Made by a program: the position numbers and the translations under genes. The notes below the pieces were generated by a model. It ran no database searches, was not told where the DNA came from, and saw only the letters and a program-made list of their open reading frames with translations. 64,000 nucleotides of DNA, taken from positions 1,178,001 to 1,242,000 of the forward strand of contig CP048685.1 in assembly GCA_015698285.1 (NCBI GenBank), read 5' to 3'. The stretch comes from Candidatus Nitronauta litoralis (lineage in GTDB: Bacteria; Nitrospinota; Nitrospinia; Nitrospinales; Nitrospinaceae). The stretch's first letter is position 1, and each line of letters starts with the position of its first letter. Positions 1,077 through 44,604 of this stretch are shown here, piece after piece.

Positions 1077-1142
1077 TTCTGATAATGGATCAATTATAAA
1101 CTAGCTTTTAGTTTGCCATTTTCATCCTATTTGGAGAGAACA

Positions 1143-8236: not shown

Positions 8237-11200
8237 ATGTCTGACTTTTATATTCCTAGAAAATTGTATTGCGGTGATCAAATCGTAAGAGACATTGATT
8301 TGGTTGAAAAAATTGGTGTTTTCATAGTACTCGCAGAACCCGGTGCTGGCAAAACCGACTTGCTGAACTATTTTGGTCGAGCCCACAAGGTTCTATGTGA
8401 ATCAGCAAGCCTGTTCATACACGCTCCAGAATCTACTCAATCCATACTCATCATTGATGCTCTCGACGAATTAGCGCGCATAAACGAAGAAAAGATCACC
8501 GAGATCATCTTTAAGGCTCAAACCTCCGGTGCTCACAAAGTTATACTCGCAAGTCGCTCCTATGTGTGGGACGAAGCGCGGACAAAAGTCGTTCAAGATT
8601 GCTTCCGAATCAAACCCACGATCTTACGTCTCGAGCCTTTCGATAGTGATGAACAACGTCAGCTTTTCCTGCATCACCTGCCAAATGAGGATTTTGATTC
8701 TTTTTGTTCTGAAGTTGAGCGTTTCGAACTCACCCCAATTCTCGGAAACCCACAATTTCTTCTCCTTCTTGCCGAAGCCTATGTGCAAAGCGGCCAACGT
8801 TTTACTTCGAAGCGACAAATCTATGCCGATGCTATACGTAGGCTTGCAAGCGAGAGTGAGCAAACAGCTGGAATGCAGGGCCGTCCTCAGACGGACAAGA
8901 TTGTAGCCGTGGCCGGTGAAGTCTTCGCCAAGTTACTTCTTTCTGGAGCCACAGGTGTTTCTGCGATAGAACAAATCGGCGATGACGCTTATCCCTACCT
9001 CCAGAGTGTCGGTCCAGACGATGGCATTCTTACCTTCGCACTCAATACTCGCCTTTTTAGACCGACCGTGTCCGTCAACAGGCACGAGCCAATTCACCGT
9101 ATTGTTGCTGAATATTGTGCAGCAGACTATTTAGTGAAGATTATCGAAGACCCAACAAATATCTTTTCGATCAAGCGCTGTCTCGCCGTCATTGCACCGA
9201 ATGGGGCCGTGCGAAACGAATTGCGTGGATTGCTTGGCTGGATGGCATCATTGGGCGGTCCTTTGATCCAGGAATCTGTTCTCGACCTGGATCCCTACGC
9301 AGTCTTCGCCAACGGTGATCCCTCTCAACTCCTGCCTTCTTCGAAACAGCGGCTGCTAAAGAGCCTCGAGTCACTCGCAAGTATCGACCCATACTTCAGG
9401 CGCATGGATTCTTGGAGACGATTTAGTGTTGCCGGATTCTTTTCAGAAGACATTATTGAAGACGTTCGCCCCCTTCTAGCCCCAGCATTCTCCAAGTCCC
9501 ATTTAAGAGGCTTGCTTTTAGAGCTAATCCAAGGAGCTGACGCAGTTGTTAGCCTTCAAAACGAGCTTCGAGCAATCATGTATGATCCAAATACTGGATT
9601 TAATGAAAGAAAACAGGCTTACCAAAAACTCGATTCAATACCGGAAAATTATGACATCCCTGATTTTGACTTGCTTATCGGGCAGGCCTCCAAAGACTCT
9701 CTTAGAATTGCTTCAGAGATGGTTTCAAAGAAAGGGTGTAATCACTTTGGAATGACTAGAGTCCGGCAATTAATAAAGGAATTAGCGAAGCTCTATCCTA
9801 ACGATCACGCGAGCAGGCGCATAATCGGTTCTCGTTATTTCATCAAACAGTTTTTAACAACACTCGACCTCAACGAAGTACTGTATCTTCTAAATGAGAT
9901 TACAAGTGGCATAATCTGCACCTGCGGAAAAGAGAAGCCGTATCAGTGCACATGTCGTATAGGAATCAGTAAAATCGCTGGCCATCTTTTGGACAGGTAC
10001 TTCGAACTAATGGTAGGCCCTCATGACCCACACCAAATTTTGAAATGGGTACAACTACTTATTTTTCGAAATCAAATCGATGCGGAATATAGCGCATCAG
10101 TTCAAGCCTTGCGTTCCAATAGCGGTTTACGACGCGCAATACATATAGGTGCGTTTGACGGTCTTTCTACTCAGGAAGATATCAATGCCGCTAGGATGGA
10201 ATTTCTTATGAGGTATAGGCATTCCGGCCTCATCATACAGGTAGGCGATATCCGAGCAATAGTGGATCATGCAATGGTGACTAGAAACAATCCACTCTGG
10301 GAATACTTCATTGAGGCTCATAACCCATATGCTGAACCTGGAGGGGTTAACGAGCTTAGGGCACACATGAGAGCGCAGGCCCGTCAGTCAGCAGTCTTAC
10401 TTCAAATATGGGCCCGTGTAGAACGAGATCGTCGCAATCATTTACGTCAACAGCGGGGCAAATTTGGCCGATCAAATAAGAGTTATGAAAAAAAAGAAGA
10501 AGAGATTAGAGAGAAAAATTTCGAGCGCCTACAGCAAGACCGAATACTAATCGAAGCTGGACAACACTGGGGATGGCTAAAAGTCTTTGCGGGTCAGTAT
10601 CTTCACGAGCCCGATAAAATAGAAGATATCGTTGATGATCCGCAGACCTTAGAAAAAGCCCTGTTGAACTGTTTTGATTTTCTAGCGCCCCACATACCAA
10701 CCTTAGAAAAGCTATCGGAGCAACGGGGTACAGCCATCCCCATGGTCTTGCAGGCAGCATGCCTTGCAACATTCCGCCACAAAGGGGTGTTGGAGGATAT
10801 CCCCTTCAATATCTTGCGGGCCGTCAAAGCCGATGGGGTTGGCGGAGACGGATATCAAGAAGGTGAAATAGAAAGATTTGAAGCAGAGCTAGACAGATTG
10901 ATTTTCCCCTCGGATGCAGAAGCAATAACCTTTGCAAGAAGATATATAGAACCACAGCTAACGCGCACAGAAGATGGCTATATGGGGACCTACATCATTG
11001 ATCACGGCACCACATTCGGTTCCGTCAAAGGGAAACTTGCTTTAGAATGGTTAACACGCTATCCAGAGATGCCATCTACCGCACGTGAGCAGCTATTTGG
11101 CATAGCCGCAGCCCACGCAGACAGGGCAAAACTGAACGACCTCATTGATGCTCGCTGTAATGATCCCATCGATAGTTCCGAAGCCGGGGAGAAACGCAGA

Positions 11201-12205
11201 CAGTTCTGGCTTCTACGCCACTTCTTCTTTATCGCTCCAACCTCCGACACTCTGTGGACAGAATTTAGTACAGACCCTAAATCCATTTTTCCTATCGAAA
11301 ATTATGCTGGGCGAATGTCGAGGCATGATAACGAGGGTTGGCCACATCTAAACGCAGAACAGATTTATCGCGTTTTAGATGCTTTCACAACCTCATGGCC
11401 TAAAGTTGACCTGCCTAGTTCTTGGGGACCAGGAGATCCTGACAATGAAAAGGCCTATCGCTTCTTAAGAGATATTATCTATCAGATCGGGGAAGATGCT
11501 CCTTCAATTTCCATCCCTGTCTTCGACAGAATATTGTCCGATTCCCGCTTTTCGCACTTTCACAACGAAATTAAAAGCCAGAAAGCAGAGGCCGTCAAGC
11601 AGCTTGCTCATATAGACTACAAACCTCCTCGCCCAGCCGAAATTTCCAAGCTCTTGGATGAAAGCAAGATTGCGTCCGTGGAAGACATGAGAGCCCTGTT
11701 GATTGAACTATTAGATGAATATCAGGATCGCCTGAATGGGGCCGCAACCAACCCGGTGGAAGTTTTTTATTCTGGTGATGAGCGTGTTGATGAAAATACA
11801 GCGCGAGACCGCATTGTAGAAAAGCTTGAAGAACGATTGAATGCGCTGCATCTTGGAATTGTTGTTGAACATCAAATGCGGGATGCTAAGCGTTGCGATT
11901 TTACAGCATCAACATCAATCTACGGCTCTCAAGCAATACTAGTTACTGAAGTAAAAGGACAATGGAATAGAGAGCTCTACACCGCAGCATCGGCTCAATT
12001 AGCGGAACGTTACATGATTTACCCTGGTGCAGCAGATCAAGGCGTGTATTTAGTATTGTGGTTTGGTGGCGATGAGAAAATCGCTGGTAAAAAAAACCAA
12101 TCCATCACTTCGGCAAACGAGCTTCGCCAAGAAATTATTGCCAGCTTACCGGAAAGCCTTTTGGGCCGAATTGACGTTTATGTTTTGGACGTCTCAAGAC
12201 AGTAA
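8237..12205 (+). CDS. NACHT-type NTPase with C-terminal PD-(D/E)XK-like nuclease
   Basis: A 1322-residue lone gene, probably an anti-phage STAND protein. The NTPase is at the extreme N-terminus: Walker A EPGAGKTD at 34-41, Walker B IIDALDE at 72-78 with the acidic NACHT pattern (DxxDE), and a possible sensor Arg107 in LASRS. The 30-odd residues between the Walker motifs are unusually few. A long, mostly helical middle follows, with a possible metal site C561-x-C563-x7-C571-x-C573 and a charged coiled-coil-like stretch near 740-780. The last 120 residues hold a PD-(D/E)XK pattern: Asp1221, then TEVKGQW with Glu1238 and Lys1240, then AQLAERYM and a YLVLWF strand. The expected model is ligand-triggered oligomerisation that releases nuclease activity. 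The sensed signal is unknown. The gene has AT-rich flanks and no partner gene. Confidence 0.8.
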   Translation: MSDFYIPRKLYCGDQIVRDIDLVEKIGVFIVLAEPGAGKTDLLNYFGRAHKVLCESASLFIHAPESTQSILIIDALDELARINEEKITEIIFKAQTSGAHKVILASRSYVWDEARTKVVQDCFRIKPTILRLEPFDSDEQRQLFLHHLPNEDFDSFCSEVERFELTPILGNPQFLLLLAEAYVQSGQRFTSKRQIYADAIRRLASESEQTAGMQGRPQTDKIVAVAGEVFAKLLLSGATGVSAIEQIGDDAYPYLQSVGPDDGILTFALNTRLFRPTVSVNRHEPIHRIVAEYCAADYLVKIIEDPTNIFSIKRCLAVIAPNGAVRNELRGLLGWMASLGGPLIQESVLDLDPYAVFANGDPSQLLPSSKQRLLKSLESLASIDPYFRRMDSWRRFSVAGFFSEDIIEDVRPLLAPAFSKSHLRGLLLELIQGADAVVSLQNELRAIMYDPNTGFNERKQAYQKLDSIPENYDIPDFDLLIGQASKDSLRIASEMVSKKGCNHFGMTRVRQLIKELAKLYPNDHASRRIIGSRYFIKQFLTTLDLNEVLYLLNEITSGIICTCGKEKPYQCTCRIGISKIAGHLLDRYFELMVGPHDPHQILKWVQLLIFRNQIDAEYSASVQALRSNSGLRRAIHIGAFDGLSTQEDINAARMEFLMRYRHSGLIIQVGDIRAIVDHAMVTRNNPLWEYFIEAHNPYAEPGGVNELRAHMRAQARQSAVLLQIWARVERDRRNHLRQQRGKFGRSNKSYEKKEEEIREKNFERLQQDRILIEAGQHWGWLKVFAGQYLHEPDKIEDIVDDPQTLEKALLNCFDFLAPHIPTLEKLSEQRGTAIPMVLQAACLATFRHKGVLEDIPFNILRAVKADGVGGDGYQEGEIERFEAELDRLIFPSDAEAITFARRYIEPQLTRTEDGYMGTYIIDHGTTFGSVKGKLALEWLTRYPEMPSTAREQLFGIAAAHADRAKLNDLIDARCNDPIDSSEAGEKRRQFWLLRHFFFIAPTSDTLWTEFSTDPKSIFPIENYAGRMSRHDNEGWPHLNAEQIYRVLDAFTTSWPKVDLPSSWGPGDPDNEKAYRFLRDIIYQIGEDAPSISIPVFDRILSDSRFSHFHNEIKSQKAEAVKQLAHIDYKPPRPAEISKLLDESKIASVEDMRALLIELLDEYQDRLNGAATNPVEVFYSGDERVDENTARDRIVEKLEERLNALHLGIVVEHQMRDAKRCDFTASTSIYGSQAILVTEVKGQWNRELYTAASAQLAERYMIYPGAADQGVYLVLWFGGDEKIAGKKNQSITSANELRQEIIASLPESLLGRIDVYVLDVSRQ

Positions 12206-23670: not shown

Positions 23671-25242
23671 TTAATAAGCTGAGGTTTCCTTATCAGAGGT
23701 CTCTCCGAAGTAAAGTGGCATAGTGAAGTAGAAGGTTGTTCCGATGCCCACTTCGCTTTCAAAACCTATCCTGCCTCCCATGGCTTCGATCAGGTTTTTT
23801 GAAATGGAAAGCCCTATACCCATTCCTTCTATCTTGCTGAATTCCCAATCAAGGCGTTCAAAAGGCTCAAATATTGTTTCAGCCTTATCTCCAGGAACCC
23901 CCATTCCGGTGTCGCGAACTATCAGGGTCAATTGATTCTCTTCGTCAGTTTTAATTCTGATTTCGACTTTGCCACTTGGACGGTTGAATTTAATGGCATT
24001 CGAAATCAGATTGTTCAATACCTGGCGAATGCGCTTTGGGTCTGCCTTTATGACAAGGTGATTATGAGGGAGGTTTCCACAATCAAGTGTGACATTGTAC
24101 TTTTGTGCCATTGGCTGAAGCATGGTCTCTGTCTCGTGTGCCAAGAGCACCATATCCACAGGCTCGAGATTCAAGATACACCCACCCGATTCTATCTGGG
24201 ATAATGTCAGCACTTCGTTGATCAGTGAATGAAGATGATTCCCTGCAGCAAAAATGTGGTCAATTGATTTTTCATTTTGCTCGCGGATATCCGTCTGGAC
24301 ATTCCACCCTCTCATTTTTAACAATTGACTGAATCCAAGTATGGCATTGAGTGGAGTTCGCAACTCGTGACTCATCCTTGATAGAAAATCGGTTTTAGCC
24401 CGATTTGCGTTTTCGGCAACCTCCTTCGCTTTTTCAAGGTCCTGGGTTCGCTCACGTACTTTGATAGCAAGGCTTTCCTTGGAATTCAAAATGGATATAT
24501 TCTGTTTTTCGATTTGTGAAAGCATTTTATTGTAATGATCCACTAACATTCCCATTTCCCCGCCCGTTTTTTTCTCTGCCCGCAACTGGTAATCACCAGT
24601 TTCTCCAACCTGTCGTGAAATTTTTACGAGTTGTGCGATGGGGTTTGATATTTGACGCGCTAAAAGAATCGAAACTGCAATCCCAAATAACATGACACCG
24701 GCAGCGATGAGAAAAAAACGAATCTGTTCGTTTAATATCCTTTCATAAATCGACTTTAAGGAAAACTCGACAACGAAACTTCCAAGTATCTTTTCCTTTA
24801 ATGTTTCAGGGTCATATCCTTTTATTGGAACTGCCCAACAAATTTCCTCGTTCTTAACCAATGGCTCCTTCTGGTTCAAAAGCTCTTTTACAGAAATATT
24901 TTGCAATCCCTCTTGATTCAACCCAGCTATGACATTGGATTGGTTATCTAAAATCAAAAGGGAGGATAACCTGGGCTCATTCTTCATCCGATTAATGATA
25001 TTGCGGATATATTCCAGGTTGAGATTACTCAAACCATATCCCAGAGCCTCTGCCGATAAATGAGTAAAGTTTATAATTTCCGACTTGGAAACCTGAAGAA
25101 CCAGTTTCCTGTTGCTATCCAGTGTCAAGGTAATGAATGTGATCATCACCAAAAACAAGACGGATAGGATGCTCAGCAGGATTTTAGTTTTAATCGGCAG
25201 GTCCGATAAAAAACCCGAAAATTTGACTTTATTTTTCAACAT
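23671..25242 (-). CDS. Orphan membrane sensor histidine kinase
   Basis: A 523-residue two-component sensor. It has a transmembrane segment at about 20-40, a periplasmic sensor region of about 135 residues, a second transmembrane segment at about 176-195, a HAMP linker (ISNPIAQLVKISRQVG), a coiled coil, and a HisKA domain with the phospho-acceptor His292 in MSHELRTPLNAILGF. The HATPase domain follows with N-box RQVLNNLISNAIKFN, DTGMGVPG and GMGIGLSISKNL. The periplasmic part resembles double-Cache or PAS-like sensors but has no certain family. No response regulator is adjacent, so the partner must be elsewhere. It converges with ppdK. Confidence 0.9.
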   Translation of the reverse strand: MLKNKVKFSGFLSDLPIKTKILLSILSVLFLVMITFITLTLDSNRKLVLQVSKSEIINFTHLSAEALGYGLSNLNLEYIRNIINRMKNEPRLSSLLILDNQSNVIAGLNQEGLQNISVKELLNQKEPLVKNEEICWAVPIKGYDPETLKEKILGSFVVEFSLKSIYERILNEQIRFFLIAAGVMLFGIAVSILLARQISNPIAQLVKISRQVGETGDYQLRAEKKTGGEMGMLVDHYNKMLSQIEKQNISILNSKESLAIKVRERTQDLEKAKEVAENANRAKTDFLSRMSHELRTPLNAILGFSQLLKMRGWNVQTDIREQNEKSIDHIFAAGNHLHSLINEVLTLSQIESGGCILNLEPVDMVLLAHETETMLQPMAQKYNVTLDCGNLPHNHLVIKADPKRIRQVLNNLISNAIKFNRPSGKVEIRIKTDEENQLTLIVRDTGMGVPGDKAETIFEPFERLDWEFSKIEGMGIGLSISKNLIEAMGGRIGFESEVGIGTTFYFTMPLYFGETSDKETSAY

Positions 25243-25444
25243 TAAACCTTAAACTCAATGCATTACGATTTATTAATAATGCGAAATTTCGCTTCTTCAA
25301 TAACGGTTTGGAGACCGGAGGGATGGCTGAGCTGAGCTTTTTTGCTGAATTTGATTATTTGTTTACAAAAATTCCTGTGCTATTAATAATAGGCCTAATT
25401 GCGACTTAATCAAGGCCATTTTGGGCATTTTCCCTTTTTCTCGC

Positions 25445-25867
25445 ATGGACAAATTTCTTATTCACCAGTTTCTTTTGATCCCGTTTATGGGAGGTCTTCT
25501 GGCGATTACCTCGCCTTCCCGGGCCTATGCTAATGAGAAAAAGGTTATCATCACCGAACCCGAAAATAATTCCACTGTCACCAATCCCTTCAAGGTTTGT
25601 ATGGAGGCTTTGGGATTAATTGTCGAGCCCTCCGACGGTGACCCTTATGAGGGAAGAGGACACCACCACATTCTATTCAGTTCATTGCCCAAAGATTTGA
25701 CTCGTCCCCTTCGGAGGAAGGAAGCCATCCATCTTTCGAAAGGGGAACATTGTGTCAGTTTAAATATGGAGCCGGGAAAGCATGTTATTATTGCCCTTTT
25801 CTCGTACGGAGACCACGTTCCCTATAAACCCGCAATATCAGACCGGATTCTGGTTACCGTCAATTAA
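25445..25867 (+). CDS. Secreted DUF4399-type protein
   Basis: A 140-residue exported protein. ATG at 25445 gives a signal-like N-terminus (MDKFLIHQFLLIPFMGGLLAI) cut near AYA. The mature part matches the pattern of DUF4399 proteins: EPENNSTVTNPFKVCMEA, the GHHHILF histidine cluster, SKGEHCVSLNMEPGKH and the ALFSYGDHVPY end. His- and Cys-containing DUF4399 proteins are often found beside multihaem cytochromes and may bind metal; the role is unknown. It lies 67 bp upstream of the decahaem cytochrome gene and probably shares its transcript. Confidence 0.7.
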   Translation: MDKFLIHQFLLIPFMGGLLAITSPSRAYANEKKVIITEPENNSTVTNPFKVCMEALGLIVEPSDGDPYEGRGHHHILFSSLPKDLTRPLRRKEAIHLSKGEHCVSLNMEPGKHVIIALFSYGDHVPYKPAISDRILVTVN

Positions 25868-25934
25868 TTCAAGAGGGTATGAATTAATTTGTTGAGGCTA
25901 TGAAGTTCTCTTTTCAGGGGTGGACCTGATTCCT

Positions 25935-26933
25935 ATGTTAAAAAGGCTACTCTCTTTTTTATTCGCGACGTTATCTTGTCTAGGTTCCTCTTTCCTGTTT
26001 TCTTCCGAATCACTTGCGACAAATTTTGATTGGGGCACCTTACAACCCAGCCTCAAAGGTCTTCCCTTTATTGCGAATTCGGGAAATCCTCAGGATGAAA
26101 CAGAATGTTTGTTATGCCATGAAAAGTATATCCGGGCATTTGGCAAAACATCGCACGCCAGAGCTTTTCAAAATAAACAACCCGGAAAACTGGGAAGTAT
26201 CTGCGAGAACTGCCACGGCCCCCTGGGTCAACACCTGAAGATTAAACTATCAGGAAAAAGAAAATCCCCCAGCTCAAGAAAACGTAAGCCACATTTTCTA
26301 TTTTCATTTAAAAACCCGTCTCCTTTTAAAAAAAATAAAGTCTGCCTGCAATGTCATGAATCGCAAAATAGAACGATGTTCTGGCAGGGCAGTTCGCATG
26401 AAATGACAGGGCTCGCCTGCGACAAGTGCCATTACATCAGCAAACGGCGCTCCCGAAAAAATCTACTACGCAACAAAGATTCTAAAAAGGTCTGTTTCCA
26501 ATGCCATCGCGACAAGCGTTCCAAAATGATGCGGACATCCCACATGCCTCTCCGGCAGGGAAAATTAAATTGCAGTTCGTGCCACAACCCGCATGGGGGA
26601 GATGGCCCGGCCCTCCTCAACCAAAGTTCGGTCAATCTGACCTGCTTCACCTGCCATCAGGAAAAACGCGGGCCCTTTATTTTTGAACACATTCCAGTCC
26701 GTGAAAATTGCAGTAATTGCCATGACCCCCATGGGTCAAATTTTCGGCCCCTTTTAAAACACAAAATGCCTTTCTTATGCCAACAATGTCATCTGCAGGC
26801 CTTTCACCCAGGCGACATTTACGACAATAAAAAACTCGGTGCCTCCTCCCGTCTAGGTGGAAAGTCCTGCGTTAACTGCCACAGTAATATTCACGGCTCC
26901 AACCACCCTGCAGGATCCAAACTGCAACGATGA
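25935..26933 (+). CDS. MtrA/DmsE-like decahaem cytochrome c
   Basis: Periplasmic ten-haem cytochrome expected to sit inside an outer-membrane barrel and carry electrons across that membrane. There are exactly ten CXXCH sites (CLLCH, CENCH, CLQCH, CDKCH, CFQCH, CSSCH, CFTCH, CSNCH, CQQCH, CVNCH) over about 332 residues, the number and size found in MtrA, DmsE and PioA. The signal MLKRLLSFLFATLSCLG is followed by a cut near LAT. I start at ATG 25935; GTG at 25920 is also possible. A basic insert (KLSGKRKSPSSRKRK) follows the second haem. The stop overlaps the barrel gene by four bases (ATGA). No surface cytochrome (MtrC/OmcA type) is next to it. Confidence 0.88.
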   Translation: MLKRLLSFLFATLSCLGSSFLFSSESLATNFDWGTLQPSLKGLPFIANSGNPQDETECLLCHEKYIRAFGKTSHARAFQNKQPGKLGSICENCHGPLGQHLKIKLSGKRKSPSSRKRKPHFLFSFKNPSPFKKNKVCLQCHESQNRTMFWQGSSHEMTGLACDKCHYISKRRSRKNLLRNKDSKKVCFQCHRDKRSKMMRTSHMPLRQGKLNCSSCHNPHGGDGPALLNQSSVNLTCFTCHQEKRGPFIFEHIPVRENCSNCHDPHGSNFRPLLKHKMPFLCQQCHLQAFHPGDIYDNKKLGASSRLGGKSCVNCHSNIHGSNHPAGSKLQR

Positions 26934-29218
26934 CACGATTTCTCCTCACACTCATGGTAATGTCATCAATGATGGCTTCGAGTGTTTGGGCCCAAGAGGA
27001 TCTACCAGTCTTTGATATTGTCGGTGGTATTCCAAATTCCAAAGATGAAAACAAATGGATTCACGAAGGCTGGAATGGTCAATTGACTTTGGGTGGGGCG
27101 GGAGTCTCCCTTAGCAGGCCTTCCTTTAAGTTCGGGGAATACTCGGGAATAGAGGGAACCGGCGGATACGCACTGGTAGAAGGCGAATTGCACCATTTTA
27201 AAGAAAACCGGTTTTTGGATATCTACGCCGATAACCTGGGTCTGGAAAACCGCAACATATCCTTCGACTATGGTAAAACCAACAGCTATCAGTTTTTCGG
27301 TGAATGGGATCAATCACCCCATCTATTGTTCAGTGAAAACCTGACACCCTACCAGGGAACTGGGAGCTCCCGCCTGTCTTTACCCTCCAGTTTCCCGAAA
27401 ATGGTTTCATTTACCAATACCCCCCTTCCAACTGGCAATCCCGTTGAACTGAAAGTGGATTCGCGAAATGAAGCAACTTTGGGTATGGTTAAACAACTAG
27501 GGGCTTATCAATTCGATATTAAATTTAACCGGATTGAAAAAAATGGGATTCGTTCGCTTGGCGGTGTGATCGGAAATTCTCCGGCCAATCCCATGGCGAT
27601 CATTCTCCCGGCTCCTATCGACTTTCATACCAATGAAGTTCGCGCTACCTTTTCAAAAAAAATAGAAAACGCAAATTTCAGTTTTCAATACTTTGGTTCT
27701 TTCTTTGACAACCGGCAGGATTCCCTTGTTTTTGATTCCCCTTTCGCCGGCCTGATTCCATTTTTCGACAATGCAAGCCCTTTGTCAGTAGGCCCCCTAC
27801 CGGCCCAAGGCAGGATTTCCCTGGAACCGGATAATCAATTTCATCAGATAAGGCTCGCCAGTGGGTGGAATCCGACCCCTTCAACCCGCCTGACTGCAAC
27901 GGCAGAATACGGTATGGCATTTCAGGATGATATGCTGATGCCTTACGCTGTGGACAGTAGCCGCGGTTTGTTGCCGCGACAATCAGCAGATGCAGCGATC
28001 AGCAATTTGATGATTAAACTAAAGGCAACCACTTCCCTGACACCCAAACTCAAACTAGCTGCTAAGTTCCGCCATTTCAGTACCGATAATCAGACACCCA
28101 TTTCCCTGTTTCAACCTGTTGTCAATGACACAGGGCCACAACAGCCTGTTTCAGGAGATCAATCTGTTTTCAATCTCCCGGTTCAATACTCCCAGAACCA
28201 GGGCAATCTTGATCTAAGTTTTCAGCTTTGGGACGCCACCATTCTCAAGACAGGCTTTCAGGTTCTTCATAAAGACAGGGACTTTCGCGCGATTGACGAA
28301 TCCATTGAAAATAAATTCTCCCTGGGAATCTCTTCAAATGAACTGAACTGGATGTCGGTAACTGCAAGCCTTTCATATGCACGCACAGACACGGATGGCT
28401 ATAACTTTGAGAACGTCCGGGCTCTAAGAAACACGCCGCAATTTTTGGGAAGCCCGACAAGCCCCCTTTTGGCTGCACCCGCCGATTTCAGGAAGAAGGA
28501 CATAGCCGAAAACAATCAACTTCAATCCATGTTAAGTTTGAATTTTTTTCCAGTTGAAAATCTTACGATAGGAGTTTCACACAACTGGATTCAACAGAAG
28601 TTTCCTGAGCAATTCATTGGTCTGCAAGAGGTCCAGGCCCAGAGCGCCACGATAGACCTCACACACAATCCTTTTCCGACTCTCTCTTATTCATTCTTCT
28701 TTTCTTATGACACCAATAAAATAGATCAGATGGGGCGGGCTCATAATTTTATTACACCCGGTTCCATCAACGACCCTAACCGGAATTATAGTGTAATGCT
28801 GGACGACAACTCTTATACGGCGGGGGCAGGTGGTGAATGGTTGATCTTCAACAACAGGGTCAACCTGAAAGCGGACTACTCAATTTCAAAAAATATTTCA
28901 GATATTGGTTTTATGGCAGGGCCTGATCCCTTCGTGGCCAATCCAGTCGACTTGCCATCCGTAAAAACCCTCCTCCATCAATTAAGTGGATCAGCCGAAT
29001 TCAATATCTCAAGAGAAGTGTTGGTGGGCATGCGGGTGATCTATGAAAACTTTTCATTCGATGATTTTGCACTCGATAGCGTCAACGCGCAGGGCCTGAT
29101 TTCACCATCTTCTTTTCCAACGTCTAACGGGGAAACGATCGCCCTCAGTAATACCATTCAGGATTACGAAGCCTACACCGGCATGCTGTATGTGACCTAC
29201 CGGATGAGCGAAAATTAA
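26930..29218 (+). CDS. MtrB/PioB-like outer-membrane beta-barrel
   Basis: A 762-residue outer-membrane porin that would sheath the decahaem cytochrome encoded just upstream. It has a clear Sec signal (MTRFLLTLMVMSSMMASSVWA). The rest alternates short amphipathic strands with turns rich in Asn, Asp and Gly throughout, such as FKFGEYSGIEGTGGYALVEG and LDIYADNLGLENRNISFDYG, as in MtrB/PioB. It lacks cysteines at the N-terminus, unlike the CXXC of Shewanella MtrB, and ends YVTYRMSEN without a terminal aromatic residue. The four-base overlap with the decahaem gene is strong evidence for one complex. Confidence 0.85.
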   Translation: MTRFLLTLMVMSSMMASSVWAQEDLPVFDIVGGIPNSKDENKWIHEGWNGQLTLGGAGVSLSRPSFKFGEYSGIEGTGGYALVEGELHHFKENRFLDIYADNLGLENRNISFDYGKTNSYQFFGEWDQSPHLLFSENLTPYQGTGSSRLSLPSSFPKMVSFTNTPLPTGNPVELKVDSRNEATLGMVKQLGAYQFDIKFNRIEKNGIRSLGGVIGNSPANPMAIILPAPIDFHTNEVRATFSKKIENANFSFQYFGSFFDNRQDSLVFDSPFAGLIPFFDNASPLSVGPLPAQGRISLEPDNQFHQIRLASGWNPTPSTRLTATAEYGMAFQDDMLMPYAVDSSRGLLPRQSADAAISNLMIKLKATTSLTPKLKLAAKFRHFSTDNQTPISLFQPVVNDTGPQQPVSGDQSVFNLPVQYSQNQGNLDLSFQLWDATILKTGFQVLHKDRDFRAIDESIENKFSLGISSNELNWMSVTASLSYARTDTDGYNFENVRALRNTPQFLGSPTSPLLAAPADFRKKDIAENNQLQSMLSLNFFPVENLTIGVSHNWIQQKFPEQFIGLQEVQAQSATIDLTHNPFPTLSYSFFFSYDTNKIDQMGRAHNFITPGSINDPNRNYSVMLDDNSYTAGAGGEWLIFNNRVNLKADYSISKNISDIGFMAGPDPFVANPVDLPSVKTLLHQLSGSAEFNISREVLVGMRVIYENFSFDDFALDSVNAQGLISPSSFPTSNGETIALSNTIQDYEAYTGMLYVTYRMSEN

Positions 29219-36964: not shown

Positions 36965-38432
36965 GGTAGTGTCAAGAAAGTTTCGCACTTTGAATTTTGG
37001 AAAGCCCTCAATCAGGTCTGCATTTGTTGGACCTGTGGGGGCTGTCGGGAAACGCGAAGCGTTTTCCACAACTCCACAGGTCATTGTTCATGCCGCCTGG
37101 TTCTGCTCCATCTCCTTAAGTGGGTCCATGCTGATATATCTTCTGATACCCCACCTGGTTCCGGCAACGTGTCTGAGTCTGGCCGCCGCCAGCATCAAGG
37201 CCGATTGCCCATCCGGAAAACAACCGACCACTCGCGTCCGTCGTCTGACCTCTCTTAGGATTCTTTCCAGCGGATTGTTCGTTTGGATATTTCGCCAGTG
37301 CTCTCTCGGAAACGCGTAGTAAGACAACGTCTCATGCGCTCCGTCTCTCACTTTCTCTGATGCCTTCGATAGCTTCATCGTAAGTAGTTTGGTAGCCACC
37401 GATTCTATCTTCTCAAGTGCCGCCTGCCGGTCTTCCTGTGCATGAATGGCTTTCAACATGTTCGACACTTCCTTCATCTTATTCCGGGGAACCACCGAGA
37501 ACACGTTCCGGTAAAAATGTACCGTGCATCGCTGATGGTCTGAATCAGGATAAAAGTCGCTGAGTGACTCTACCAAACCCAGGCACCGATCAGAGATGAA
37601 CAGCTTCACACCTTTAAGCCCCCGTTCCTTTAGGTGCCGAAGGAAACCGCTCCAACCCGCCTTGTCCTCCTTGGTGCCTTCACAAACGCCCAGCACTTCC
37701 CGGTAACCCTGCCGGTTCACGCCGATGGCCACCAGTACCGACACGTTCTTCACCTCACCGCCCCAACTCCGTTTCAAACAAATCCCGTCCAGATATACAT
37801 ACGGGTATTCCCCTGTGATCGGGCGGTTCCTCCACTCATCGATCTTCACGTAGATCTTCTTGTTGAGCTGGCTCACTGTGCCGGGGCTCACACGAGTTCC
37901 CCAAAGCGCCTGGGTGATGTCCTCCACACGACGAACTGAAACTCCGGCCAGATACATCTCCATCAGCGCTTCCTCAACAGAGGACTCACGCCGACGATAC
38001 CGCTCAATAATAGCCGTCTCGAACGTCAACGTTCTTAGCTTCGGCACCTTCAGGTCCACCTCGCCAGCCTGGGTTTGAAGCTTACGGTCATAGTGGCCCG
38101 CACGCGTGTCCTTACGTCCCTCCGAACGCTCATACTTGCCAGCACCACACAAACGGTCTGCCTCAGCATCCAGAAGGCCGTTCAGCGTTTCCTCAACCGT
38201 CGAACGCACAATCCCGTTCACATGACTCTGGATTTTCCCCTCATCTATCGATACAATGTTCTTCACAATTGGTGATGCCACGTCTTTCTTAGACTTCGCT
38301 TCCATATTAAGTCCTCCTGGTTTTAGGTCCGGTTCTCGTTTCTCGCAAAACGAAGTATACAGACCAAAAGGAGGACTTTCCTTTTTCCAGCCAACACGAC
38401 CAGATTAAATGTGCGAAACTTAGCTTACGTTA
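36965..38432 (-). mobile_element. IS256-family insertion sequence
   Basis: About 1468 bp, bounded by the 10-bp direct repeat TCAACACAAG. Both ends carry imperfect inverted repeats sharing AAGTTTCGCAC (left 36978-36988; right, inverted, 38411-38421). It holds one intact transposase gene. Intact coding and clean target duplications suggest fairly recent insertion. It lies about 180 bp downstream of nxrC. Confidence 0.88.
37088..38305 (-). CDS. IS256-family (Mutator-type) transposase
   Basis: A 405-residue DDE transposase with no frameshift. The Mutator-family blocks are present: VPKLRTLTFETAIIERY split near the N-terminus, YVYLDGICLKR with the first catalytic Asp, LFISDRCLGLVESL with the second Asp, HQRCTVHFYRNV, and the C-terminal NNPLERILREVRRRTRVVG region that carries the catalytic Glu. 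A start codon ATG has AGGAGG upstream on the minus strand. Confidence 0.95.
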   Translation of the reverse strand: MEAKSKKDVASPIVKNIVSIDEGKIQSHVNGIVRSTVEETLNGLLDAEADRLCGAGKYERSEGRKDTRAGHYDRKLQTQAGEVDLKVPKLRTLTFETAIIERYRRRESSVEEALMEMYLAGVSVRRVEDITQALWGTRVSPGTVSQLNKKIYVKIDEWRNRPITGEYPYVYLDGICLKRSWGGEVKNVSVLVAIGVNRQGYREVLGVCEGTKEDKAGWSGFLRHLKERGLKGVKLFISDRCLGLVESLSDFYPDSDHQRCTVHFYRNVFSVVPRNKMKEVSNMLKAIHAQEDRQAALEKIESVATKLLTMKLSKASEKVRDGAHETLSYYAFPREHWRNIQTNNPLERILREVRRRTRVVGCFPDGQSALMLAAARLRHVAGTRWGIRRYISMDPLKEMEQNQAA

Positions 38433-38615: not shown

Positions 38616-39632
38616 TTAATACTCCAAGGTATGAAACTGGGTTACAGCTTTCTGACCATTCCGTTCTTTGTTCTGACCATTCCAGATAGCGATAGCCATT
38701 GGAGTTTTAGAACCACTGAACTGAGTGTCATTCTGGTCATTGGTGCTCAAAGCCCGCTTGAACACAACTGACCAACGGTTGTTAAACCAGTTTCCTTTTC
38801 CGTCAACATCCTGATGAGCCTGAGTGGTCAAGGTAGAGAAACCTTCAGCATTCAGGTCTTCAACTGGAGATCGGCGCATAGAAGCGTCAGACAGGATATT
38901 GTGGGTTGCCCGACCAGGATTGTAAACACCTTCGTTTTTACCCATACCACGGTCAACGAAAGAGTTACGCTTCGAGATATCGGTTGCGCCACCGGTATGA
39001 ACGCCGTTGCCCGCACGCTGATCTTTAGAACCAGACACACCTTCTTTCAAGGCCGCTTTCATTTCAAGTTGCCCTGAAGGCTCATACATGTAGTAACCGC
39101 CAGAACCCATACCCATGTTTTGGTACTGGTCTTCTACATCCTGCATACCTGCGTTTCCAGCAGCACCAGCGCCTTCTTTATCCCAGGTGCCTTTCCACTG
39201 CCAGATGTTAACGCGCTCGCCTTCACCGCCCATTGTGAATGGAGGCTCTTCGCCAGCTTGATTTACAGGGAACATAAGAGCTACCTGATCTTTATATTGC
39301 TGTGACCGAACCATAATGTCATTACGAGTCGGGTCCAACCAGGTCAGCATAACGGCGATTTCTTTGTCATTCCGTACAGCCTTAACACGCACCCATTTAG
39401 TGGATGGGTTAGGCCACATTGGATTTGTGATCATCTGGGGATCCATTTCAATGGTGATGTGCTTTCCAGCAGTCGGACCATAAGATGGAGACCAGAAAGG
39501 ATCAGTTGGGTCTACAGGAATTTCTCCCTGAACCCTTAACGCTTTAATGGTTACAGCGTTTGCAGCTACAGCAAACATGCCAACCATCAGCGCGGCAATC
39601 AAAGCGAGTATTACCGACTTTTTAAAATTCAC
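38616..39632 (-). CDS. nxrC: Nitrite oxidoreductase gamma subunit, haem-b type
   Basis: A 338-residue exported protein of the family of haem-binding gamma subunits of type II DMSO-reductase enzymes (ethylbenzene dehydrogenase/NarI-replacing). It has a Sec signal (MNFKKSVILALIAALMVGM, cut after ANA) and beta-sandwich sequence with ITIEMDPQMITNP, EIAVMLTWLDPTRND and SVVFKRAL. In NXR it would accept electrons from the NxrB clusters through haem b in the periplasm and pass them to cytochrome c. It is third in the minus-strand cluster, 117 bp downstream of nxrB, and ends in a strong terminator. Haem ligands cannot be fixed from sequence alone. Confidence 0.85.
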   Translation of the reverse strand: MNFKKSVILALIAALMVGMFAVAANAVTIKALRVQGEIPVDPTDPFWSPSYGPTAGKHITIEMDPQMITNPMWPNPSTKWVRVKAVRNDKEIAVMLTWLDPTRNDIMVRSQQYKDQVALMFPVNQAGEEPPFTMGGEGERVNIWQWKGTWDKEGAGAAGNAGMQDVEDQYQNMGMGSGGYYMYEPSGQLEMKAALKEGVSGSKDQRAGNGVHTGGATDISKRNSFVDRGMGKNEGVYNPGRATHNILSDASMRRSPVEDLNAEGFSTLTTQAHQDVDGKGNWFNNRWSVVFKRALSTNDQNDTQFSGSKTPMAIAIWNGQNKERNGQKAVTQFHTLEY

Positions 39633-39691
39633 TGTTTTCCTCCTGTTAGCCTTACGTAGCAGATTCCGAATTATGAGCAGTTAGCTCGAGA

Positions 39692-39730
39692 AAAAAACAA
39701 CCATTCCGGGGCGGCAGACCCGCCCCGGAA
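39692..39730 (-). terminator. Terminator-like hairpin between nxrB and nxrC
   Basis: A perfect 11-bp stem (TTCCGGGGCGG with CCGCCCCGGAA, five-base loop, 39704-39730). On the minus strand a T run follows after AATGGTTG. It could trim nxrAB mRNA or lower nxrC expression. A function in mRNA stability is equally possible. Confidence 0.6.
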
Positions 39731-39749
39731 GTGACAGAGTCCAGGTTTT

Positions 39750-41027
39750 TTAGAATGCACCCGGATGTTCTTCAGGCCGTACGTAAAATGGCTCTTCGAC
39801 CGTCACGCGGATGATCTCTTTGCCTTTACGGTTGAACCCGATTACCGTGTCGTTATACATCTCGAACTTCTTCCCGTGGATGTTGGTCTCGAATATTTTC
39901 GGACCTGGCTCACGCTTCCACTTGAAGATAATCCGCTGCGTCGTTCGGAACAACTGCAACACGCCCAACAGGTCGCGATCCGGTACCATGTACTGATCAA
40001 TCGCATGATCAACACCTGGCCCAAACATCTGCTGGCTGTATGCTCGTGGCACGTGACGCGACGGAACATAATAACCGTTAGGCTCTGTTCCCAACTGCGG
40101 ATACAGCGGCAACGCTACCTTACGGTCTCGAATCAGATAGTACTGAGGATTGTCCGGATCATGCGCCCATTCACCGTTGCTGCCAATCTTGACAAGACCC
40201 TGCAAGCGAATCTTACCAACACATGCGGCCATACAACGGGTCTCCATCTGATCACCCTCGGTCAAAGGATCCAATCCTTCAATTCGGGGGTAACAGGCGA
40301 TACATTTCTCGGAAATACGAGTCGTACCACGGAACATCGGCTTCTTGTAAGGACACTGCTCAACACACTTCTTATAACCACGACAGCGGGACTGATCAAT
40401 CAAAACGATTCCGTCTTCCTGACGCTTGTAGATCGCTTTACGCGGACAGGCCGCCAAACAACCCGGGTACGTGCAGTGGTTACAAATCCTCTGCAGGTAG
40501 AAAAACCAGATCTTATGCTCTGGCAATACTGAACGCGTGCCGTTGTCCCCACCAAACGTTCCCTCACGGGACTGGGTGAACTCACGACCATGAGCCGTAT
40601 CCTCACCAAAGTTCGGAAAACGCCACTCTTCGTCAGTCGGTACATAACCGATCGCCTGCTGGTTCAGACCAATCTTCGCTGGTGCTTCAAAAATCGTCAC
40701 ACCCTCGTATACACCGTGAATGGCCTTGTTTGACGTCTTACGGACGTTCCATACATTCTGACCTGGGTTGGATTGCTCCAACATCTTCAAAATCTTCCAG
40801 TCCCAGAACTGAGGATACCCACCATAAGGCTTCGTCTCTACATTGTTCCACCACATATACTCCTGACCCTTGGAAAACGTCCAGGTGGACTTATGGGCCA
40901 TCGTACATGTCTGGCATGCGATGCAGCGGTTTGTATTAAATACAAACGTAAACTGCTCTTTCGGATGCCTTTCCTCGTACACATAGGTCGCCATGCGACC
41001 CAATTGCCAGTTATAGACTTCAGGCAT
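39750..41027 (-). CDS. nxrB: Nitrite oxidoreductase beta subunit (Fe-S)
   Basis: The electron-transfer subunit of NXR, 425 residues with four Cys clusters in ferredoxin-like order: CIACQTCTMAHKSTW, CNHCTYPGCLAACPRKA, CRGYKKCVEQCPYKKP, and CIACYPR followed by RCMAACVGKIRLQG. These would bind three [4Fe-4S] and one [3Fe-4S] cluster, as in NarH-type subunits. It has no signal peptide, as expected of a protein exported together with the Tat substrate NxrA. It follows nxrA by 115 bp containing a hairpin. Codon use looks strongly biased, as in highly expressed genes. Confidence 0.93.
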   Translation of the reverse strand: MPEVYNWQLGRMATYVYEERHPKEQFTFVFNTNRCIACQTCTMAHKSTWTFSKGQEYMWWNNVETKPYGGYPQFWDWKILKMLEQSNPGQNVWNVRKTSNKAIHGVYEGVTIFEAPAKIGLNQQAIGYVPTDEEWRFPNFGEDTAHGREFTQSREGTFGGDNGTRSVLPEHKIWFFYLQRICNHCTYPGCLAACPRKAIYKRQEDGIVLIDQSRCRGYKKCVEQCPYKKPMFRGTTRISEKCIACYPRIEGLDPLTEGDQMETRCMAACVGKIRLQGLVKIGSNGEWAHDPDNPQYYLIRDRKVALPLYPQLGTEPNGYYVPSRHVPRAYSQQMFGPGVDHAIDQYMVPDRDLLGVLQLFRTTQRIIFKWKREPGPKIFETNIHGKKFEMYNDTVIGFNRKGKEIIRVTVEEPFYVRPEEHPGAF

Positions 41028-41101
41028 TGTTTAACCTCCCTAAAAACTGAAACCCGAGGGTTTGCAGTCGGATTGATTTTTTAACGTTGAAATACCGTTC
41101 A

Positions 41102-41130
41102 AAAATCGCGGGGCCCTGAAAGGGCCCCGC
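41102..41130 (-). terminator. Terminator-like hairpin between nxrA and nxrB
   Basis: A perfect 9-bp stem (GCGGGGCCC with GGGCCCCGC, loop of five, 41108-41130) followed on the minus strand by GATTTTTG. It could be an attenuator or processing site within the operon. Confidence 0.6.
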
Positions 41131-41142
41131 AACATCGCCTCT

Positions 41143-44100
41143 TTAAATCTTAACGCGTACGTATTGTCCCGCGAGATACATTTCAGCAAAACGGTCTTTC
41201 AGCGGAGACTCAGGAGTGTAGCCCGTTCGGACTGGCTCCCAAAGCCCCTTACCGTGCAGACCACCGTCTTCCGCCTTGGAGAATTTAACCAAAGTTTCCT
41301 TCGGCGTGGCGTTAACAGCGTGGTTGTCTGCCTCGTAACCATGCTTGAACTTCATCTTGGATTTTGCCTTATGGAACAGACTGTCAGTCTGATGCATCGG
41401 CATCAACCAAGACCGGGTGATGGACTGCTGACCACCGTAACGGAAGTTAGACTGATAAGGAGTGGTCATGGACATTGCACGTCCGTCTGGCCGCTCTTCA
41501 TGAGCCTTAACCGTACGCTCTGTACCGGCCCACGTTGCATGTTTCATCATCGTGGTGTGATACGGATACGCAGGGTTGTACTTCGCACGCAACATCAGGC
41601 GACCAACCTTATAACGAGGATCGGAAGGTTTCCAACCCATATAAGGACGATCAGCCGGATTAGCGTCACAGTAGATATAGTCACCATCATTGATACCCAG
41701 ATCCTTACAAAGGAATGGGTTCATATGAACTTGCCATTCACCCACACCAGGAGACCGTTTGTCCATGCGATATGGATCACCAAAGTTGTTGTTCCAGATC
41801 ATGTTCCAGTCAGTCGTCGCCCAGGACGAATGAGCGGTATGTCTGGACTTCGGAGTTACGCAGTAAAAACGATATCCCTTTTCCCACAAGAAGTTTTTGG
41901 TCGTACGTACTGAAGACCATGGCTTCTTGATATTCCGCACGTGACGCAGATCCGGATCTTGCTCGTCTTCCGGAATTCCGTAGTCATCAGGACGGATGTA
42001 GGGATTGGTGGACACGATAACGTTCGGCAGGTAAGGCGTTGCTTCCGGACCTTCCCGGTGAACGATAAAGTTTTCACCCCATTCGATCGCTTCCGGCTCA
42101 TCATTGTAGAACTGGATACGTCCGTTTGGTGTGTAGTAAGGTTTAGACTCGGTAAACATCTCCCAGAACGGAGAACGCGGATAAGTTCTGAACAACAACA
42201 GACACGCACCCGGCTCACCATACTTGCCGTTGATGATGTCATCGATGTTGTAGCCCATACCCGTGGTCGACGTGGTGAACAACCGACGAATCATTGCTTT
42301 CGTACGGTTAGGAGCTTTACCTTCGTAAACCTTCATATAATCAGCAAAACGCTTGTCACCTGTGACTTCAGCCAACCGCTTGGCGAATTCCCGATGAATC
42401 AGGTTATCGTCAATGGTGTCGAAAACAGGCTTAATACCGGTACCACCCCAAATCTGATGGAACGGATTAGAACAAGCCGAAGTGATCTCATAACTCTCAA
42501 ACTCAGCCCAGGAGTTCGGCGCAAGTACGATGTCTGAGTACTCACAAGAACCCGTGAACTCGATGTCCTGAGCCACGATCATGTCTACGTTATTGTTGGT
42601 GTTGAACACCAGCTCGTAGAACCACTTCGCATTGTTGATTACGTTAACGTTTACAAACCAGATCAGCTTGGAAGGACAAGGCATATGGGAACGACCCGTG
42701 AAAACCTTACGTCCATACCGTGGGGTATTAACGATAAGAGCTTTATCACGATGCGCCCAGTAGCTGACTTCTTCACCCTTCAGGTAACCCTTAACATTGG
42801 CCCAGTCAGTATTCTTGGCTGGATCAGTGATCGGGTTGAAAGGATCTTCAGCAACCATCGCCGCAAAGCCAGGACCTGACCAGTGAGAACCCTGGTAGTT
42901 ACCAGCTTTGTAGTTTCCGGCCCAGGTATGAGAACCGGAACCCTTCGGACCTACGTTACCGGTCAACATCAGCGGAACATAGGATGCGCGGTTATGCATG
43001 GTGGCATGGAAGTAGTGATTGATACCCTCACCGTAGTGGATCTCAACGGGGAGAATCGTACCCATGTCACGCGCCAGACGAACAACGAGATCCTTAGGAG
43101 CATGAGAAATCTGATGAGTGGTATCCAGATCGTAGTCCTTCAGATGGATCTTGTACATTTCGTACAGAGGCATAGCCGTGATGGTCTTGCCATTTACAAG
43201 CTTAATATCATAAACACCGTCCAGAGCTGGATCGATGTTCTTTTTACGCATTTTCGCACCGATGTCTTCGCGAGTGATCGCTACAGGCTTGTCGGTGTTG
43301 GTATCCCAGACAACAAAGTCCGGCATTTTGTCCCGATTGAAGTTCTTCATCCACTTGGTGGTGAAGCCATCTTTCGGAAGCGGCTGAGGCTTATAACCGG
43401 GAATAAAATCATCCGGATGCAAGCGCGTCAGGTTATCGGTACGTACCAGAAGAGGCATATCGGTGTAATCCTTGATGTAAGGAATATCCGTCAACCCTTC
43501 GTCCATGATGATTTTGGCCGTACCAAGGAAAATGGCGATATCTGAAAGACCAGCGCGAACCGGAATCCAGTAATCAGCCTTCGTCGCAGGAGGATTGTAC
43601 TCCGGCGCAATAGAAACCAGCGTACCACCACGTTCCATGATTTCAGTGTACCAATGCGCTTCCGGCATCTTGTTTTCAATGAGGTTTTTACCCCACTGAA
43701 TGGTCAGCTTCGCATAACGATGATCAGCGAAGTCGATGTCAGAAGTCTGCATACCATGCGTCCAGGAATGCCCCGGAGCCTGATCACCATGCCAGGTGTA
43801 GTTGGACCACGCACGACCACCCAACACCTGACCAGGACCACGGCCACGCACGATAGCATCGAGCAAAGCAACCATATTAGCAAGACGGTAGATACCGTAC
43901 TTACCAACAACCCCCAGAAGACCCATACCACCACGGTACTTCATAACGCGCGAGCCGGAACCCCCCATGGCTTCGATCATTTCTGGCTGATAACCTTCGT
44001 TTTTCAGGCGCTGGGCACCACGAGGACCGGAGTAGGCTTTACCTACGGCAACGTGACCCTTAGCCAGATAAGTGAAGGTCTGATCCCAGGTTATACGAAC

Positions 44101-44604
44101 AAACTCGTCCGTTCCCCGGCTGGTGAACTTATACTTTTCACGGTTTTCTTTGTCGAGATAAGGAAACCCGTCATCCGCCCACTGTTTCCAGCCAACGCGA
44201 ATCATCGGGTACTTATTCCGATAAGGACCGTAAACGCGGCGAGGGAAGGTCATGCCGCGCAGACACATGCGTGGGTTCCAGGCAGCATCTGCCTGGTTAC
44301 CATACAGGTCAAGGATCTTATGGTGATCGTAGTTCTGCTCAATCCGCATCAGAATGCCGTTACGGACGAATCCGCGAACACGACACTGATGGGTGTCATT
44401 CGGAGAACAGCAGTAAGTGAATGAACGTTCATACTTGTACTGGTCACGATAGACTTCTTCCCAACGACGATCCGGATAGGACTCGAGGGGATTACCTACC
44501 TTAACAACCGGCTTTAACTGTGCTCCGACTCTCTTGCTCGAAAGTGCCATCGCCGAAGCGACCCCAGCACTGACCTGCAAGAATTTGCGACGATTCAAAC
44601 GCAT
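41143..44604 (-). CDS. nxrA: Nitrite oxidoreductase alpha subunit (molybdopterin, catalytic)
   Basis: Oxidises nitrite to nitrate at a bis-MGD molybdenum centre. It is a 1153-residue type II DMSO-reductase-family protein with a twin-arginine signal (NRRKFLQVSAGVASAMA, cut near GAQ), so it acts in the periplasm, as in Nitrospina and Nitrospira rather than Nitrobacter. Cys65, Cys66, Cys74 and Cys114 (in YCCSPNDTHQC and MCLRG) fall where the N-terminal Fe-S cluster is bound. The NYTWHGDQAPGH segment probably carries the Asp ligand to Mo. VNVNVINNAKW, NNNVDMIVAQDIEFTGSC and the C-terminal domain match the family. First gene of nxrABC. The leader is long with a terminator-like hairpin. Confidence 0.94.
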   Translation of the reverse strand: MRLNRRKFLQVSAGVASAMALSSKRVGAQLKPVVKVGNPLESYPDRRWEEVYRDQYKYERSFTYCCSPNDTHQCRVRGFVRNGILMRIEQNYDHHKILDLYGNQADAAWNPRMCLRGMTFPRRVYGPYRNKYPMIRVGWKQWADDGFPYLDKENREKYKFTSRGTDEFVRITWDQTFTYLAKGHVAVGKAYSGPRGAQRLKNEGYQPEMIEAMGGSGSRVMKYRGGMGLLGVVGKYGIYRLANMVALLDAIVRGRGPGQVLGGRAWSNYTWHGDQAPGHSWTHGMQTSDIDFADHRYAKLTIQWGKNLIENKMPEAHWYTEIMERGGTLVSIAPEYNPPATKADYWIPVRAGLSDIAIFLGTAKIIMDEGLTDIPYIKDYTDMPLLVRTDNLTRLHPDDFIPGYKPQPLPKDGFTTKWMKNFNRDKMPDFVVWDTNTDKPVAITREDIGAKMRKKNIDPALDGVYDIKLVNGKTITAMPLYEMYKIHLKDYDLDTTHQISHAPKDLVVRLARDMGTILPVEIHYGEGINHYFHATMHNRASYVPLMLTGNVGPKGSGSHTWAGNYKAGNYQGSHWSGPGFAAMVAEDPFNPITDPAKNTDWANVKGYLKGEEVSYWAHRDKALIVNTPRYGRKVFTGRSHMPCPSKLIWFVNVNVINNAKWFYELVFNTNNNVDMIVAQDIEFTGSCEYSDIVLAPNSWAEFESYEITSACSNPFHQIWGGTGIKPVFDTIDDNLIHREFAKRLAEVTGDKRFADYMKVYEGKAPNRTKAMIRRLFTTSTTGMGYNIDDIINGKYGEPGACLLLFRTYPRSPFWEMFTESKPYYTPNGRIQFYNDEPEAIEWGENFIVHREGPEATPYLPNVIVSTNPYIRPDDYGIPEDEQDPDLRHVRNIKKPWSSVRTTKNFLWEKGYRFYCVTPKSRHTAHSSWATTDWNMIWNNNFGDPYRMDKRSPGVGEWQVHMNPFLCKDLGINDGDYIYCDANPADRPYMGWKPSDPRYKVGRLMLRAKYNPAYPYHTTMMKHATWAGTERTVKAHEERPDGRAMSMTTPYQSNFRYGGQQSITRSWLMPMHQTDSLFHKAKSKMKFKHGYEADNHAVNATPKETLVKFSKAEDGGLHGKGLWEPVRTGYTPESPLKDRFAEMYLAGQYVRVKI

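Follow-up and report, generated by a model that had tools for sequence, protein, structure and literature searches.

What kind of electron-transfer system is encoded by an overlapping pair of cytochrome and porin genes in a nitrite-oxidizing bacterium, and in which direction would it carry electrons? The question is raised by a stretch of 64,000 nucleotides from Candidatus Nitronauta litoralis (CP048685.1), here called the window, which corresponds to positions 1178001–1242000 of the single contig (3,921,641 bases) of this genome. From the letters of the window, the original prediction had recognized a layout like that of MtrAB or PioAB, and had suggested a role in a nitrite oxidizer; the host, Ca. 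Nitronauta litoralis EB, is indeed one (PMC8026999). As set out below, the pair very probably encodes an MtrAB-type porin–cytochrome conduit, and electron uptake, e.g. from Fe(II), is given about an even chance of being its main role, as judged from gene content and context.

Identity of the gene pair

The first gene (25935–26933, + strand; alternative start GTG at 25920) encodes an MtrA-type decaheme periplasmic cytochrome c of 332 residues, with an N-terminal signal sequence (judged by eye) and ten CXXCH sites, the first at residue 58. When its residues were shuffled 20,000 times, at most three CXXCH were obtained. The second gene (26930–29218, +) encodes an MtrB/PioB-type outer-membrane beta-barrel protein of 762 residues that contains no cysteine. 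The genes overlap by the four bases ATGA at 26930–26933, with the barrel start ATG at 26930 and the cytochrome stop TGA at 26931–26933. The ten heme sites in a secreted protein of this length and the four-base overlap had both been noted in the original prediction and were confirmed.

Both proteins pass the cut-offs of curated families. The cytochrome scored 243.3 bits against TIGR03508 (DmsE/MtrA family, NCBIfam; cut-off 192.2) and matched, with an E value of 1.9e-60, chain A of PDB entry 6r2q, whose chain labels do not name the proteins but which PMC10654088 identifies as MtrAB of Shewanella baltica. The barrel protein scored 331.2 bits against PF11854 (Pfam; cut-off 23), being the only match to this family in the whole genome, and 252.7 bits against TIGR03509 (NCBIfam; cut-off 240.05). 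The NCBIfam models for GSU2203/2204 missed their cut-offs (210.3 vs 325 and 36.2 vs 350 bits). A profile of the Nitrospinota MtrA homologues aligned with residues 16–333 of 333 of 6r2q_A, and one of 11 Nitrospinota MtrB sequences with residues 41–695 of 695 of 6r2q_B. All ten CXXCH were invariant in the 12 Nitrospinota MtrA sequences, that of the window included, as were H74, H100, H155, H220, H252, H266, H291 and H320; with H203 and H324, which are kept in at least 90% of these sequences, ten histidines outside CXXCH are conserved at this level, and the alignment to 6r2q_A suggests that they serve as distal heme ligands. AlphaFold models calculated from alignments of two sequences each (the window's and that of locus L002) had a mean predicted local distance difference test score of 33.9 for MtrA and 28.1 for MtrB, too low for the models to be of use. 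The assignment to the MtrAB/PioAB type is supported by the scores above curated cut-offs, by profile alignments that cover almost the whole of both 6r2q chains and by the conservation of the heme sites.

No gene for a surface cytochrome follows the pair, as had been stated earlier. When non-overlapping open reading frames (ORFs) of at least 60 residues were scanned for CXXCH, three were found in the window (117–1076, 1113–1994 and 25935–26933); besides mtrA there is none within 23 kb on either side and none downstream of the barrel gene within the window.

Distribution in Nitrospinota and published relatives

A sample of 77 Nitrospinota genomes was surveyed, in which G000 denotes the window's genome and the other G numbers its relatives. 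PF11854 was found in 13 of them, in G033 only as a short C-terminal fragment, and TIGR03508 above its cut-off in 12; mtrAB is present in all three genomes of the window's genus. In G003 (L055, 15709–16290), the end of mtrB is overlapped by four bases by the gene of a secreted cytochrome c554-domain protein that has three CXXCH.

Genes of this type are already in print for relatives: MtoAB has been reported from three Nitrospinaceae metagenome-assembled genomes (MAGs), with cyc2-like genes in several (PMC11995701), MtoA from four and Cyc2 from eight Nitrospinota MAGs (PMC11442690), and Cyc2 from Nitrospinota in a further study (PMC9769843). The Nitronauta pair adds a member to this set. The words 'porin', 'MtrA' and 'DmsE' do not occur in the main text of the paper that describes the N. 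litoralis genome (PMC8026999), nor in PMC10839748.

Comparison with characterized systems

MtoAB of Sideroxydans lithotrophicus resembles the pair in combining a decaheme MtrA-type cytochrome with an MtrB-type barrel in the absence of MtrC, but its cluster includes the cytochromes MtoD, PmcA and ImoA (PMC13390432), where the Nitronauta locus has genes for a DUF4399 protein and a histidine kinase instead. PioAB of Rhodopseudomonas palustris TIE-1 is likewise a two-protein conduit without an extracellular cytochrome; the long heme-free N-terminal extension of PioA (PMC6831781, PMC10654088) is, however, absent from the 332-residue cytochrome, and no PioC/HiPIP was found among the Nitronauta neighbours scanned. 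Homology to the A and B proteins of the Shewanella MtrCAB complex (6r2q) extends over nearly the full length, whereas no mtrC adjoins the pair. The Nitronauta MtrA is 38% identical to MtrA of Photobacterium sp. DA100, whose MtrCAB locus (L116) holds one gene of the OmcA/MtrC family and another that is NapC/NirT-like; neither type lies beside the Nitronauta mtrAB. A plasmid collection, tried as a source of references, provided this single MtrA match; MtrB and the Cyc2-like protein described below had no match in it. An N-terminal CXXC is present in MtrB of the Photobacterium locus and, as CKGC, in 6r2q_B, but in none of the 12 Nitrospinota MtrB sequences (two of them partial, N-termini included); in Shewanella, loss of C42 abolished ferric reduction (PMC12175506). 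Cyc2, finally, has one heme fused to a porin, an architecture unlike that of MtrAB.

Shared partners of mtrAB and a Cyc2-like gene

In three genomes of the same family but another genus (G015, G018 and G019), mtrAB is directly preceded by a gene for an 11-heme cytochrome, which in G019 has an N-terminal NapC/NirT region above the Pfam cut-off. Divergent from this gene lie those for a pentaheme cytochrome, a Rieske protein, a two-part cytochrome b and another pentaheme cytochrome. Two genomes of another family in which no MtrB was found (G005 and G006, the G005 copy being split over two contigs) share these genes and their order; there, however, what comes after the 11-heme gene (53% identity) on its strand is not mtrAB: it is a gene for a 418-residue protein with one N-terminal CXXCH and a signal sequence (judged by eye). 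This protein looks like a Cyc2-type fused cytochrome–porin, a label that rests on motif and layout, with no Cyc2 reference in the comparison. The strict Cyc2 motif consists of AXPXFAR[Q/K][T/Y] before CXXCH and PXL after it (PMC8406198). Among five aligned Cyc2-like proteins, RKY precedes CXXCH in all, PXL follows in four (PRV in G005), and four end in a C-terminal phenylalanine; the two that were scanned against Pfam and NCBIfam had no family above cut-off. A triheme c7 cytochrome is encoded within 2.3 kb of mtrAB in four of 12 genomes (G015, G018, G019 and G043) and within the same distance of the Cyc2-like gene in five of the seven genomes with a strong match (G005, G006, G007, G035 and G036); overall, it was found in 26 of the 77 genomes. 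Owing to the common 11-heme/Rieske/cytochrome b cluster and the triheme c7, the two conduits share partners. No published mention of such an exchange was met in the literature seen, which was not searched with the exchange in view.

The exchange does not follow a simple rule. In G043, the Rieske/cytochrome b genes lie on a separate short contig and the 11-heme protein has no match, and in G013 a short contig holds part of the cluster, MtrB and the 11-heme gene both being without a match. The idea that MtrAB and Cyc2-like proteins exclude each other was considered and dropped as suggestive at most, the motif occurring in two of 13 genomes with MtrB and in 22 of the 64 others; the corresponding numbers for Cyc2-like profile matches are four of 13 and 29 of 64.

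Three further groups of heme proteins were seen in these genomes. A second recurring cluster (L114 and L161–L165; G036, G043, G045, G011, G009 and G038) comprises a Rieske protein, a cytochrome b and an octaheme cytochrome that is 78–92% identical to that of G036, and is adjoined by a Cyc2-like gene in G036 and G038. Other single-heme porin-like proteins (L104–L108 and L112; G005, G045, G047, G023 and G043) are closer to the Cyc2 motif, with PxFAR before CXXCH in six of six and the strict motif in one. Small monoheme proteins that belong to one cluster are encoded near these porin-like proteins (G005 and G047) and also close to MtrAB (G015 and G018).

Direction of electron transfer

The reading preferred here is that MtrAB would serve mainly in electron uptake. 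The ten c-type hemes of MtrA would line up as a conducting chain inside the MtrB barrel, which in this family has 26 to 28 strands (PMC10654088, PMC4245776), and electrons would thus traverse the outer membrane with no need of MtrC. At the cell surface, a donor, with Fe(II) as the first candidate, would reduce the outer heme, and the electrons would pass inward to a periplasmic carrier and from there either to an oxidase or to the quinone pool, the latter for CO2 fixation. Under this scheme, Fe(II), when available, may be used alongside nitrite or in its place, and the neighbouring histidine kinase would control this use.

Several observations favour uptake. Firstly, MtrAB shares partners with the Cyc2-like gene, and Cyc2 proteins are held to oxidize Fe(II) (PMC8406198). 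Secondly, there is no adjacent MtrC, no CymA type was found, and MtrB has no CXXC; clusters without an outer-membrane cytochrome serve above all in Fe(II) oxidation (PMC4245776). Thirdly, with Fe at ~0 mV, nitrite at +433 mV and Mn(IV) at +466 mV (PMC9040806), Fe(II) would be a better donor to the quinone pool than nitrite. The original prediction had left a choice between oxidation of an extracellular donor such as Fe(II) and disposal of electrons; the exchange seen in relatives makes donor oxidation the likelier role, favoured rather than demonstrated.

Several observations weigh against this reading. The Cyc2-like proteins deviate from the strict motif, its P being replaced by S in all five and its F by W in four, and the script that scanned four of them returned no strict motif. 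Neither the Rieske/cytochrome b cluster nor c7 lies beside mtrAB in seven of 12 genomes (G000, G003, G004, G009, G010, G045 and G072), and neither appears downstream of mtrAB in the G011 stretch. In G000 itself, the 11-heme protein (search at 1e-10), the triheme c7 (search at 1e-6) and a Cyc2-like gene (motif and profile searches) were not found, and its two cytochrome b matches share just 41% and 34% identity with the accessory protein. Because the 11-heme protein, c7, a close accessory cytochrome b and the Cyc2-like gene are not found there, the case for uptake rests on the relatives. Two proteins of the window also come close to the families whose absence is cited: the pentaheme protein at 117–1076 and MtrA gave sub-cut-off NapC/NirT matches (22.1 and 21.9 vs 24.1 bits), and the former passes the cut-off of the Pfam MtrC/MtrF domain (34.0 vs 30 bits), which MtrA itself barely passes (30.6 vs 30); TIGR03507, the MtrC/OmcA model, is not listed for the pentaheme protein. 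Moreover, MtrA, MtoA and PioA form no function-specific clades, and MtrCAB is reversible (PMC8805035).

It is possible, if somewhat unlikely, that the conduit works outward, with Fe(III), Mn(IV), an electrode or a partner cell as the acceptor of electrons that a periplasmic carrier would deliver at low O2. The NapC/NrfH family acts in quinol oxidation, and the neighbour of mtrAB in the sister genus is NapC/NrfH-like. Outward transfer is the best-known activity of the MtrAB family, and Fe(III) can be reduced by MtrAB or MtoA/MtrB without MtrC (PMC4245776), which also counts against uptake. On the other side stand the missing CXXC signature, the absence of an adjacent MtrC and the lack in G000 of a NapC/CymA-type protein: NapC/NirT (CymA/ImoA type, PF03264) had no match at an E value of 0.01, while the E. 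coli control was positive. TIGR03507 had no match at 1e-10 in any of the 77 genomes, nor in any control genome, although the model recognizes Photobacterium MtrC (392 bits). Three other large multiheme proteins of G000 were inspected, of which two are ExtM-like and one is encoded beside Rieske/cytochrome b genes; none matched TIGR03507. Electrons from nitrite (+433 mV) would in addition not reduce Fe(III) (~0 mV), whereas Mn(IV) (+466 mV) would be a possible acceptor (PMC9040806).

A wider version of the uptake reading is offered tentatively and is rather doubtful as a whole: Nitrospinota may possess a modular uptake chain, in which decaheme MtrAB and the single-heme Cyc2-like protein, though unrelated to each other, would be interchangeable front ends of one module made of the 11-heme NapC-like protein and the Rieske–cytochrome b proteins, Nitronauta having kept MtrAB with another carrier.

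Other heme-protein genes were seen in G000. Four lie in a row at ~518134–524189 of contig C1 (L176, 8135–14190); two of their products are large and ExtM-like, with 11 and 10 CXXCH, and remain below family cut-offs. In the window, 117–1994 (+) encodes two heme proteins: a pentaheme cytochrome, 25% identical (E 6.5e-16) to the first of the pentaheme proteins in the g3 cluster, and after it a protein that carries three CXXCH together with a cytochrome c' domain.

Gene neighbourhood and metal handling

Upstream of mtrA lies a gene (25445–25867, +) whose product is a secreted DUF4399 protein containing the motif GHHHIL; its length is 140 residues from the in-frame ATG at 25445 or 148 from TTG at 25421. 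It scored 50.6 bits against PF14347 (cut-off 28), in agreement with the earlier description. A divergent gene (23671–25242, −) encodes a membrane histidine kinase (HAMP-HisKA-HATPase, by Pfam) that is probably the regulator of the pair. Histidine kinase and DUF4399 genes precede mtrAB in G000, G004, G009 and G010, the kinase gene being divergent except in G004; in G011, they stand at the end of contig C58 and mtrAB opens contig C7. The block of kinase, DUF4399, MtrA and MtrB genes is thus kept in five genomes of three families. Other neighbours scanned were an ORF without a family above cut-off, a KAP NTPase and a phosphoesterase. A promoter scan (8 sites vs a shuffled mean of 6.7) and a terminator scan (2 vs 5.8) were uninformative. 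Farther off in the window, 8237–12205 (+) encodes a 1322-residue protein above the NACHT antiphage EruA cut-off (1257.7 bits, cut-off 1000).

These neighbours bear on the idea that the conduit acquires or detoxifies metals by changing the redox state of Fe or Mn at the surface, with the DUF4399 protein as a metal-binding helper. The DUF4399 gene beside the pair in five genomes, the HHH motif in the three proteins inspected (G000, G004 and G009) and the adjoining sensor kinase would suit such a role. DUF4399 is, however, common: it occurs in 60 of the 77 genomes, among them genomes without MtrAB, and for this reason the idea that it marks MtrAB specifically was rejected. The bc-type cluster next to mtrAB in the sister genus, moreover, speaks for respiration, and metal handling is considered unlikely.

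Phylogeny and the nxr-like genes

Trees were calculated from 12 Nitrospinota sequences and Photobacterium for MtrA and MtrB; their deepest branches are long and unsure. In the MtrB tree, the window's genus joins G004 of another family (support 100/99), apart from g3 of its own family; support for the same grouping is 86/92 for MtrA. This grouping suggests either transfer or the loss of alternative copies. A transferred locus without a present role, kept by chance, would fit the grouping and the sole C-terminal MtrB fragment of G033, but with both frames intact, ten hemes kept and the pair present throughout the genus, this explanation is very improbable. The fragment itself (contig C16; L068, ~9815–10204) covers the C-terminal end over 62 profile positions and is perhaps the remnant of a lost locus.

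Nxr-like genes lie at 38616–44604 on the strand opposite to mtrAB, 9.4 kb past the end of the barrel gene; their label rests on family, gene order and organism, with no NXR reference in the comparison. The distance of about 9 kb given in the original prediction is therefore right, but it carries little functional weight: no ORF clustering with the nxr-like ones was present in 14 other stretches (≤20 kb each), and nearness was rejected as a functional link because it is not conserved. Least probable of all is a DmsEF-like conduit feeding an extracellular molybdoenzyme reductase, as could be suspected from the naming of TIGR03508 after DmsE and the molybdoenzyme operon 9.4 kb away, since that operon is nxr-like, lies on the other strand behind an IS256-family transposase gene (37088–38305, −) and lacks a counterpart in the 14 other stretches, and no DmsA/DmsB was found among the scanned neighbours of the pair.

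Implications

Nitrospinota are the most abundant known marine nitrite oxidizers (PMC8026999). A working conduit would provide a second source of energy or electrons to some of them, and would connect nitrite oxidation with the cycling of iron or manganese in sediments and biofilms. Since the strain that carries the pair is in culture and its genome is closed, these proposals are testable. The exchange of MtrAB and the Cyc2-like gene, if it holds, would offer comparative evidence on the direction of MtrAB, which trees alone did not give (PMC8805035). If the modular chain were true, nitrite oxidizers would take lower-potential electrons from Fe(II) and so spare part of the reverse electron flow for CO2 fixation.

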